This document shows positions 2,782-11,021 of a stretch of DNA of 64,000 nucleotides, one piece after another. Source of the DNA: Emcibacter nanhaiensis (GTDB taxonomy: Bacteria; Pseudomonadota; Alphaproteobacteria; Sphingomonadales; Emcibacteraceae). The notes under the pieces are model-generated. The model was not told the origin of the DNA, ran no database searches, and saw only the letters and a list, made by a program, of their open reading frames with translations. The translations under genes were made by a program, and so were the position numbers. Each line of letters begins with the position of its first letter. Position 1 is the first letter of the stretch. Location: the NCBI RefSeq assembly GCF_006385175.1, contig NZ_VFIY01000005.1, positions 379,501 through 443,500 on the forward strand, written 5' to 3'.

Positions 2782-3597
2782 TTATTTCAAAGGTTCAATA
2801 TGAGTTGGATTATCTGGATCGATTATACCCCAAGGCATCTTTTCATAATCCATGATAGGTCTTCCAAAAATACAAATATTCCCGTCTTCTTTCGTGGGCC
2901 AAAAGATACCAACCGGTGCAACATTTGCATGTTCATAGATTTTCACCATTTGGATTGGCCCACCTACACTAGGGAATCGATTGCTTCTGATTATGTCGCG
3001 TAGAATACAAAATGGCTCCATATTGAAGGAGCCCTTATCAATTTTATCCTTTGATTTTAACATCTCCACGAGCATGTCTTTTGCCTCTGCAACAGCATCT
3101 TCGTCTCCATTAAACGCGATTACCTTTTTAGAATTATCATTTTGTCCTTGCCAAGGAGTGGTGGGTCGAAATGTGAATTTATCAATATTGCTGTCGAAGT
3201 GCAGTTTCCAGATACGAAATTCTTTCATTTTCCATGAGTATCCACTTAGAACGAACACTGCCTCCGGGGGAGACGGTGAAATTTGTCCATGAGGAAGGTT
3301 GGAAATGAAACTTCTTGAATGATTGAAAAGTCTAACTAAGTGGCCTTTCAAGTCTGTAATATCCATTGCTCTGGATACAGCAGGTGGATAAAGGCGTATC
3401 CCGTCAATTGCTTGTTGTATAAATGGGTAAGCATCGTTGGTAATACCCGCAAATGAAATCACTGCATCACTTCTAGGGAGTTGAAAAATTTTTGGATTTC
3501 CATCCCAACTCTGTCCGCCTGAAAGTCTGCTATCTGAGATTACGATTAGTTCCCGTGTAGACTTCACCGTTCTAATCCAAGACATGCTTAAGGTCAT
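2782..3597 (-). CDS. Ntn-hydrolase-like protein (HslV/Anbu-like N-terminus), AT-rich island gene
   Basis: 271 residues, no annotated family recalled with certainty. The first ~60 residues closely follow the opening of proteasome-type Ntn hydrolases. Thr2 comes directly after the start Met, where processing would expose it as nucleophile. It is followed by a strand ending in ISDSR (compare ASDSR in Anbu and VDSR in proteasome beta subunits), then a Lys in PKIFQL (proteasome Lys33 equivalent), then ISFAGITNDAYPFIQ (compare FAGGTADAF in HslV). The start ATG has an AGGGTG ribosome site about 8 nt upstream, which supports Thr2. No signal peptide or membrane segment is seen. The gene is much more AT-rich than its neighbours and lies beside tRNA-Arg, which suggests transfer. 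No unfoldase partner (HslU-like ATPase) adjoins it. The fold is an inference from motif order and the substrate is unknown. Confidence 0.6.
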   Translation of the reverse strand: MTLSMSWIRTVKSTRELIVISDSRLSGGQSWDGNPKIFQLPRSDAVISFAGITNDAYPFIQQAIDGIRLYPPAVSRAMDITDLKGHLVRLFNHSRSFISNLPHGQISPSPPEAVFVLSGYSWKMKEFRIWKLHFDSNIDKFTFRPTTPWQGQNDNSKKVIAFNGDEDAVAEAKDMLVEMLKSKDKIDKGSFNMEPFCILRDIIRSNRFPSVGGPIQMVKIYEHANVAPVGIFWPTKEDGNICIFGRPIMDYEKMPWGIIDPDNPTHIEPLK

Positions 3598-3774
3598 GAC
3601 GTCACCCTAATTCACTGATCTCAATTTATAGTAGAGTAATATACATGCTATCTTGTTGCATAGCTAATTTGCGTTATCTTTGTCATTATGTGCCATGTCA
3701 GCCACTTAGAACTAGGGCACAATAAGGTTGACTTGAGAGGCGCTTTTCGGCATCACTGAACTCACTGAAACGAG

Positions 3775-3851
3775 GGTCCCGTAGCTCAGCAGGATAGAGC
3801 ACCAGATTCCTAATCTGGGGGTCACAGGTTCGAATCCTGTCGGGATCACCA
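3775..3851 (+). tRNA. tRNA-Arg (anticodon CCT)
   Basis: Full cloverleaf. The acceptor arm GGTCCCG (3775-3781) pairs with CGGGATC (3841-3847) with one G-U pair. The anticodon stem CCAGA/TCTGG flanks loop TTCCTAA with anticodon CCT at 3809-3811. The T-arm ACAGG-TTCGAAT-CCTGT is standard. The discriminator is A3848 and CCA is encoded at 3849-3851. It decodes AGG and is probably the only copy of this isoacceptor, a type often used as an integration site. A rho-independent terminator follows immediately. Confidence 0.97.
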
Positions 3852-3852
3852 A
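3833..3852 (+). repeat. att-like direct repeat, copy 1 (tRNA 3' end)
   Basis: Twenty bases starting AATCCTGTCGGG and ending in CACCAA cover the T-arm and acceptor 3' half of tRNA-Arg. An identical copy lies 138 bp downstream at 3971-3990. Duplication of a tRNA 3' end is the usual scar of site-specific integration. Confidence 0.8.
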
Positions 3853-3856
3853 AATC

Positions 3857-3886
3857 AAACCGGCCCTTTGCGGCCGGTTTTGTTTT
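3857..3886 (+). terminator. rho-independent terminator after tRNA-Arg
   Basis: Inverted repeat AAACCGGCC / GGCCGGTTT around a CTTTGC loop, followed by TGTTTTT. It starts six bases after the tRNA CCA end and is placed to terminate the tRNA transcript. Confidence 0.85.
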
Positions 3887-3970: not shown

Positions 3971-3990
3971 AATCCTGTCGGGATCACCAA
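3971..3990 (+). repeat. att-like direct repeat, copy 2
   Basis: Exact 20-base copy of the tRNA-Arg 3' end. The bases before it do not fold as a tRNA, so this is a fragment and not a second gene. The 118 bases between the copies hold the tRNA terminator and no credible gene. Confidence 0.8.
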
Positions 3991-3993
3991 TAA

Positions 3994-4022
3994 AAAAAGC
4001 CGGGAATTTAACCCGGCTTTTT
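3994..4022. terminator. bidirectional terminator
   Basis: AAAAAGCCGGG / CCCGGCTTTTT with loop AATTTAA. The A-run on one side and T-run on the other let it work in both directions. It lies just past the stop of the leftward acyltransferase gene and downstream of the tRNA/repeat unit. Confidence 0.85.
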
Positions 4023-9462: not shown

Positions 9463-10050
9463 GTGGGGAAAATTCTCAAATTCCGCAGAAGAAGACCATT
9501 CGGTCTCGATGTCTTTGTTGCTGCCTCGGTTGGCCTTGTCGCCGGGGGCGTCATACATTTTTCGTTGCCTGTGAATGTTTGGGATCGAAGCACCGCAATC
9601 GTGATGCCTTTCAGTCAAAGCGATTTTGCCGGTGGGGAAACAATCTCCGGTCCGGCAGTTGTGATCGACGGCGACACTCTCAGCATTCACAGCCGCCGTA
9701 TTCGGCTTCAGGGGATTGATGCTCCGGAGTTAAGTCAGAATTGTGCCCGGAACGGAAACGCTTATTCCTGCGGCCATGAAGCCAAGCGTTATCTTGAAAG
9801 CCTGATTGCCGGGCGGCCGGTTACCTGCCACAGTGGCGAGCAAGATGAATACGGCCGCGCCGTGGCCAAATGTTTCGTCGGCGGGGGCACCGACCTCAAT
9901 GCCCGCATGGTGGAGCGTGGACAGGCTATCGCCTACCTTTATTTCTCCCGTGACTATGCTGCGGAACAATCCCGCGCCAAAGAGGCCGGGCGCGGCATCT
10001 GGAACGGGGAATTCCTCGAGCCCTATGAGTATCGCCAGCGGAGACGGTAA
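9463..10050 (+). CDS. membrane-anchored thermonuclease family protein
   Basis: 195 residues starting at GTG 9463 behind AGGAGATGAGGG. One transmembrane anchor near residues 15-33 (VFVAASVGLVAGGVIHFSL) precedes an SNase-like domain. The domain signature is VVIDGDTLSIHSRRIRLQGIDAPE, with Asp and Arg at expected active-site places, then DEYGRAVAKCFVGG and LNARMVERGQAIAY. The catalytic pattern is more complete here than in the 1431-2225 protein, so a periplasmic nuclease is likely. Three cysteines in the central part (NCARNGNAYSCGHEA, TCHSGE) may form disulfides. The AT-rich HNH endonuclease gene follows after 59 nt. Confidence 0.85.
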   Translation: MGKILKFRRRRPFGLDVFVAASVGLVAGGVIHFSLPVNVWDRSTAIVMPFSQSDFAGGETISGPAVVIDGDTLSIHSRRIRLQGIDAPELSQNCARNGNAYSCGHEAKRYLESLIAGRPVTCHSGEQDEYGRAVAKCFVGGGTDLNARMVERGQAIAYLYFSRDYAAEQSRAKEAGRGIWNGEFLEPYEYRQRRR

Positions 10051-10109
10051 GTTTTTGAGTGACAAAAATTGCTTTTTTGGGCACCCTTACAACCACAGGG
10101 GTTGTATTA

Positions 10110-11021
10110 ATGGTCAAGGCAATTTTAACACTAAAACCAGATTCTTCCTACAATGACAAAAGGGAGGAATGGTATCATTTCCCACAGACTTATCTAAATC
10201 AAATCCGGAACTCATTGGGTGACTGGTTCATATATTATGAGCCAAGACGATTATCTACGCATTTGAATAAGGCTGGCGGAAAACAGGCTTACTTTGCGGT
10301 AGGTAAGATTGCAGATATTAAAAGTGATCTGCACAATGAGGGCCATTACTACGCAAAGATAGAAAAATACCTGGATTTCGATCATATGGTTTCGTTCAAG
10401 GAAGGTGATTTTTATTATGAGGGCGGACTGGTAAAAGAGGATGGGAGTACTAATAAAGGTGCTTTTGGCCGAGCCGTACGTAATATAGAGGATCATGAGT
10501 ATGAAGCTATTTTGCGGGCCGGTTTTGAATTTTCCTTGATTGGTGAAGAAAAATACTACAGGCGTAATGCGGAACCAGTTCAAGAATTTGGAGAAGGTGA
10601 GCAACAGGAGTTTGAGCGCCCAATTGTTGAAAAATTGGTAGCTCGCCCGTTTAGAGATGACGCGTTTCGTTTTTCTGTAAGACATGCCTATAATGAAACC
10701 TGCGCAATGACAGGACTGAAAATTATTAATGGTGGGGGGCGTCCAGAAGTTCAAGCCGCGCATATTATGCCTGTGGCTGATAAGGGACCAGATTCCATCC
10801 GAAATGGCCTAGCTTTATCCGGTACCGTTCATTGGATGTTTGATAGGGGTCTTTTGTCGCTAGATGACGAATATAGAATACTGACAGCCGACGAGTATTT
10901 ACCTCCGCAAGTGAAGCATTTGTTGAACTCCTCTGGAAGAATAACCTTGCCGGAGAGATCTGAGTTTTTCCCTCATCCAAGATATTTGGAGTTTCATAGA
11001 AAAACATTTTTCAAGGGATAG
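10110..11021 (+). CDS. HNH endonuclease (restriction-like)
   Basis: 303 residues from ATG 10110. The N-terminal ~150 residues form the domain found in stand-alone HNH endonucleases (YHFPQTYLNQIRNSLGDWFIYYEPRR). The C-terminal HNH nuclease carries VRHAYNETCAMTG, then EVQAAHIMPVADKGPDSIRNG and HWMFDRGLLSLDDE, with the expected His, Asn and His residues. A GTG at 10059 gives 17 further residues that do not resemble the family start, so it was not used. The gene is markedly AT-rich compared with neighbours, suggesting horizontal transfer. No methylase or specificity subunit adjoins it, so it may be a lone restriction or homing-type nuclease. Confidence 0.82.
   Translation: MVKAILTLKPDSSYNDKREEWYHFPQTYLNQIRNSLGDWFIYYEPRRLSTHLNKAGGKQAYFAVGKIADIKSDLHNEGHYYAKIEKYLDFDHMVSFKEGDFYYEGGLVKEDGSTNKGAFGRAVRNIEDHEYEAILRAGFEFSLIGEEKYYRRNAEPVQEFGEGEQQEFERPIVEKLVARPFRDDAFRFSVRHAYNETCAMTGLKIINGGGRPEVQAAHIMPVADKGPDSIRNGLALSGTVHWMFDRGLLSLDDEYRILTADEYLPPQVKHLLNSSGRITLPERSEFFPHPRYLEFHRKTFFKG

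Follow-up and report, generated by a model that had tools for sequence, protein, structure and literature searches.

We analysed a 64,000-nucleotide stretch of DNA from Emcibacter nanhaiensis (the window), in which a minus-strand open reading frame (ORF) opening with ATG encodes a 271-residue protein with the N terminus MTLSMSWIRTVKSTRELIVISDSRLSGGQSWDGNPKIFQLPRSDAVISFAGITNDAYPF. The gene is poor in GC (40.5%, versus 57.3% for the window), and its stop side is adjoined by a thioesterase-like and then by a nuclease-like ORF, both named from our reading of their sequences. An initial annotation had tentatively taken the ORF for a proteasome-type Ntn hydrolase, pointing to a Thr codon directly after the start and to SDSR, PKIF, and FAGITNDA motifs downstream of it; the codons are as described, and their positions and conservation are given in Table 1. 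The ORF is a genuine gene, a chance reading frame being ruled out by the existence of a conserved family and by a dN well below dS.

Table 1. Features of the proteasome-like gene and its predicted active site (positions in the window)
Feature	Position	Strand	Remarks
Proteasome-like Ntn hydrolase gene	2782..3597	-	271 aa, stop codon included
AGGG, ribosome-binding-like motif	3605..3608	-	7 nt before ATG; consensus only
Thr2 codon, predicted nucleophile (Thr1 once Met is removed)	3592..3594	-	Thr in 23/24 members; model residue 2 lies opposite residue 1 of 20S beta chains
Asp22 codon (SDSR), counterpart of Asp17	3532..3534	-	24/24 members; pairs with HslV Asp17
Lys36 codon (PKIF), counterpart of Lys33	3490..3492	-	24/24 members; pairs with HslV Lys33
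Gly51 codon (FAGITNDA), counterpart of oxyanion-hole Gly47	3445..3447	-	24/24 members; aligned with the Gly of HslV FAG

Beyond the start of the gene lies a plus-strand tRNA-Arg(CCT) gene (3775 to 3851), and it had been suggested that the two belong together as an island beside a tRNA. However, the gene is located on the 5′ side of the tRNA, whereas tRNA-targeting islands sit on the 3′ side. The 3′ end of the tRNA (3833 to 3859) is repeated 138 bp downstream, at 3971 to 3997, with agreement at 24 of 27 bases, and judging by its sequence this repeat resembles the scar of a tRNA-integrated element. Since the gene lies outside the repeat, we rejected the idea that it had integrated at the tRNA 3′ end; the proposed link is unsupported, and the adjacency is probably incidental. 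No empty site was identifiable at the tRNA, where the compared relatives differ in gene order. In three relatives (G007, G008, and G010), fragments of the same tRNA-Arg(CCT) are found 1.7 to 6 kb from the tRNA. The region also contains a second AT-rich lone gene (10059 to 11021, with about 42% GC nearby), which by eye encodes an HNH-type endonuclease, and two ORFs (1431 to 2225 and 9463 to 10050) that by eye are thermonuclease-like (SNase type).

As a single query, the protein found no match in NCBIfam or PHROG, and its Pfam matches were all subthreshold: Proteasome reached an E value of 0.015, below the cutoff, and PilY2 (17.1 bits, also below the cutoff) was judged to be a chance match, as was Cas5g in PADLOC (16.4 bits). 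By tblastn, eight records of a plasmid collection (from Agrobacterium, Klebsiella, Rhodococcus, Rhizobium, and Lactiplantibacillus, together with a chromosome-sized E. coli record) matched the window protein at 28 to 60% identity. Single-protein queries of genome contigs and of viral contigs returned nothing, but alignment-based queries of both did, adding four IMG/VR contigs and twelve genome contigs (alpha-, beta-, and gammaproteobacteria, Desulfobacterota, Cyanobacteria, and Verrucomicrobia), as well as further genomes; the annotated phage records searched held no family match. The gene is therefore not the orphan it had been supposed to be but one of a family with 24 aligned members, spread over Proteobacteria, Desulfobacterota, Cyanobacteria, Verrucomicrobia, Actinomycetota, Bacillota, and prophages. 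It is nevertheless rare: among 99 relatives only the host itself has it, and within the phylum it was found in 5 of 398 genomes.

The residues expected of a threonine hydrolase are retained across this family, and the objection that homologues might lack the Thr, Asp, or Lys does not apply. Thirteen positions are invariant in all 24 members (D22, S23, L25, K36, G51, G119, D165, P195, G213, Q216, G245, R246, and E252), and the sole exception to the M1-T2 start, L036, has no intact in-frame 5′ end. We also considered a start at Met5 with Ser6 as the nucleophile, which would give the proteasome's spacing of 16 to Asp22, and rejected it, since most members have Ala at position 6 and the M1-T2 start is conserved. 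As judged from the sequences of the L002/L030 pair (dN/dS of about 0.08), the family is under purifying selection; in the remaining pairs dS is saturated, and dN ranges from 0.13 to 0.34.

An AlphaFold2 model built on a 16-sequence alignment (pLDDT 89.1, pTM 0.89) was matched by Foldseek to more than 1,000 PDB chains at an E value of <0.001, and all among the matches listed are proteasome subunits. VIA-align superposed the model on the human 20S proteasome with a Z score of 18.8 (rmsd 2.8, 188 residues) and on Anbu with a Z score of 18.1, and its alignments to chains of 1pma, 6bdf, and 1j2q begin with residue 2 of the model opposite residue 1 of the chain; identity in the 20S structural alignments is 12 to 17%. 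At the profile level, hhalign aligned the family with HslV over 68 columns (probability 92.7, E value 4.3e-7); Asp22 falls opposite Asp17, and Lys36, beyond a gap of two residues, falls opposite Lys33. The structure search set beforehand as the test of the initial annotation thus returned proteasome subunits, with residue 2 opposite Thr1, and an unrelated fold is ruled out; taken together, Foldseek, VIA-align, and hhalign support a proteasome-type Ntn hydrolase with a Thr2/Asp/Lys site. From the model, the proteasome-like fold and the placement in this family are very probably correct. The model has helices at residues 53 to 68, 80 to 95, 166 to 182, and 194 to 205, a longer S1-S2 hairpin, modest extra loops, and a C-terminal strand extension (strands 241 to 243, 258 to 260, and 263 to 268).

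The genome of the host (98.7% complete) contains two PF00227 genes. One, of 188 amino acids, reads as HslV (GTTILSIRKGNKVVIAGDG), and the other, of 264 amino acids, reads as Anbu (MTYCVGLFLEEGLVMLADTRTNAG); no 20S alpha-subunit gene was found by PF00227. The host thus has three proteasome-like genes, the one in the window being distinct from these two. With HslV it shares the fold and an Asp/Lys/Gly block aligned by profile, but it is about 90 residues longer, the alignment is limited to the columns given above, no HslU-type neighbor was noted at the gene, and an HslV-like gene is encoded separately. The full-length HslV family model gave no NCBIfam match to the window protein, and TIGR03692 (HslV) was matched by only one of six members, at an E value of 0.063. 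With Anbu it shares the fold, the MT start, and a D-x-R motif that follows S2 in the host's Anbu-like protein; however, hhalign against five Anbu-like sequences gave a probability of only 2.6, and the long C-terminal helix H5 is absent, the C terminus of the model consisting of strands. The 20S beta subunits are the best structural matches of the model, but the window protein, unlike them, has no propeptide.

Fuchs, Alva and Lupas (2021, PMC8665760) described 22 new proteasome-like clusters and reported for them no AAA+ partner and no informative genomic context; the present family, earlier suggested to be a new branch, may be one of these clusters. These clusters, especially PMI-4, AAH, and DAH, resemble the present family in being stand-alone proteins with Thr1/Asp17/Lys33/Gly47 and without an AAA+ partner, and some, namely, AAH and PPH, are spread by phages (PMC8665760). 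PPH proteins are only about 140 amino acids long (PMC8665760). By reported phyla, and compared by description rather than by sequence, PMI-4 fits best as the nearest published candidate; it carries long insertions at the pore loop and at H3/H4 (PMC8665760), whereas our model, again compared by description, has only modest loops there.

The gene travels alone as mobile accessory cargo. Mutual identity is 59 to 78% among the members from Synechococcus, Desulfatitalea, a Verrucomicrobiia metagenome-assembled genome (MAG), Comamonas, Sinimarinibacterium, and a Klebsiella plasmid, and such identity across phyla suggests horizontal transfer. Locus L101 holds the gene as a single cassette within an integron-like array with about 20 repeats of about 120 nt, and attC-like sequences that end in GGCGTTATG and GGCGTTAGC flank the gene on both sides; the array is large and holds duplicated cassettes and many unannotated small ORFs. 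Other members reside on plasmids, some of them conjugative, in islands with defense-type neighbors, or near integrase genes, and some occupy chromosomal settings without an obvious mobile element. By eye, the gene in a Rhodobacteraceae MAG (L028, 5500 to 6900) lies inside a ribosomal-protein operon, with secY, adk, and uL15-like genes on one side and uS8- and uS14-like genes on the other, an unusual place for an insertion, which may be real or a product of assembly.

In two prophage loci (L024 and L026), the gene sits between gp10-like and tail-terminator-like genes, named by reading. The flanking proteins of the two loci are 80% and 71% identical, whereas the family members between them diverge strongly, with 59% and 33 to 34% identity to the window protein. 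When 80 related prophage loci were scanned, 71 slots could be measured; they range from 5 to 2770 bp, have a mean GC content of 57% against 66% for the prophage loci, and are occupied by ORFs that fall into 77 clusters, some of these ORFs probably being antisense readings. Some of the 42 occupants scanned contain defense or candidate defense domains, but transporters of cations, chromate, or sulfate are represented too, and metabolic genes are also part of the cargo. This slot is a prophage cargo hotspot. It recalls the P2 and P4 prophage hotspots of antiviral systems (PMC9122126) in being a small variable slot between two conserved phage genes, an analogy of setting and not of protein, but it lies between tail genes in another prophage group and houses metal and anion transporters besides defense candidates. 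Across L130 to L209, almost every phage carries a different gene set in the slot, with many genes unannotated, so that this hotspot is a possible source of new defense genes.

Several copies are decaying. The gene is present at ≥99% identity in 126 of 5,426 E. coli genomes; the copy that we read is interrupted by an in-frame stop codon following residue 191, and annotation elsewhere gives the same shortened 576-bp ORF. This E. coli copy (L004, 8001 to 8840, and L010, 15001 to 15840) is located beside a tyrosine recombinase gene and ypjA. In Rhizobium phaseoli, several stops interrupt the copy toward its end, and the Klebsiella copy (L006) is split into two ORFs. Decay in these three hosts fits a dispensable accessory gene.

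A role as mobile or defense cargo had been hinted at earlier, and the genomic context (prophage, plasmid, integron, and defense-type neighbors chosen by eye) is in keeping with it. Near the family gene lie a GajA/GajB-like pair of the Gabija type (L002), LeoA/LeoBC-type GTPases (L005), and a TPR-CHAT protein (L007); in L104, AbiEi/AbiEii are found close upstream, with a CBASS-type cyclase and a 2TM effector several kilobases away, and in L039, a NucC-like nuclease and AbiTii are encoded downstream. These neighbors were picked by eye as informative looking, with no matched background, and do not amount to a statistical test. The absence of an adjacent ATPase partner, also remarked on earlier, extends to the family: no AAA+ unfoldase was seen as a recurrent neighbor across the loci inspected.

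We propose that the product, a small protein of the cytosol, is a threonine Ntn hydrolase belonging to the proteasome-like family. Methionine aminopeptidase would remove Met1 and expose the Thr as nucleophile, so that a propeptide would be unneeded, and Asp22, Lys36, and Gly51 would complete the active site. The enzyme, acting singly or after assembling itself into a ring, would need no dedicated AAA+ unfoldase, and its targets would be unfolded proteins or proteins that it recognizes specifically. Its role would be that of horizontally mobile accessory cargo and not of a housekeeping enzyme, the likeliest benefit being protection of the host cell or of a resident prophage from phages or other mobile elements through cleavage of an invader or host protein. 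For the window protein, we thus infer catalytic activity, the quaternary state, the substrate, and the role in defense, and the statement as a whole, that of an unfoldase-free, one-gene threonine protease carried as mobile cargo and protective against phages or mobile elements, is one that we hold tentatively, as somewhat short of an even bet. Its sharper form, a one-gene antiphage or antiplasmid system in which the proteasome-type threonine protease is itself the effector and has been disseminated among bacterial phyla on prophages, plasmids, and integrons, is possible but doubtful. The proposed explanation as a whole draws support from the conservation of T2, D22, K36, and G51, the model and its superposition, the HslV profile alignment, selection, patchiness, single-gene carriage, and the defense-type neighbors; against it, the prophage slot also holds transporters and metabolic genes, and no known defense model was matched beyond the chance-level Cas5g.

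Clearance of unfolded or damaged proteins has been proposed for proteasome-like homologues without an AAA+ partner (PMC8665760), and the fold and triad of the window protein do match those of proteolytic subunits; the gene might accordingly encode an unfoldase-free quality-control protease, in the manner of an uncapped 20S proteasome or of the role proposed for BPH, that horizontal transfer merely carries along. We consider this unlikely: the gene is rare and patchily distributed, has decayed in some hosts, and is carried as single cargo, all of which suggests that its benefit is conditional and not of the housekeeping kind, and HslV-like and Anbu-like genes are already present in the host. 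The same prophages, conjugative plasmids, and nearby integrase genes that mark the gene as mobile would also suit a protease in the service of the element, cleaving a host defense or regulatory protein or blocking superinfection. Yet the gene also occurs as an integron cassette and in the chromosomal settings noted above, and the tail-gene slot normally houses varied accessory cargo, making such service distinctly unlikely. Finally, the N-terminal Thr could serve a specific protein ligase or amidase instead of a general protease. Monomeric connectase sets a precedent for a ligase among proteasome-like proteins, and in the model the hairpin, loops, and strand extension could restrict the active site; however, helices H1 and H2, which connectase lacks, are predicted to be present (the first two helices given above), and no recurrent substrate or acceptor gene was seen beside the family, so that we regard this possibility as improbable.

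Beyond the 20S proteasome, HslV, and connectase, most proteasome-like proteins are without an assigned function, and our literature search found no papers linking such proteins to phage defense. The integron cassette and the prophage slot show that the present gene forms a functional unit that is carried by itself, and defense genes are among its neighbors, which makes the family a concrete and testable lead. Should the protein prove to be phage protective, it would apparently be, according to that search, the first proteasome-type protease to act alone in bacterial immunity. If it is not protective, it would still be a compact, unfoldase-free Ntn hydrolase that is useful for understanding the origins of the proteasome.
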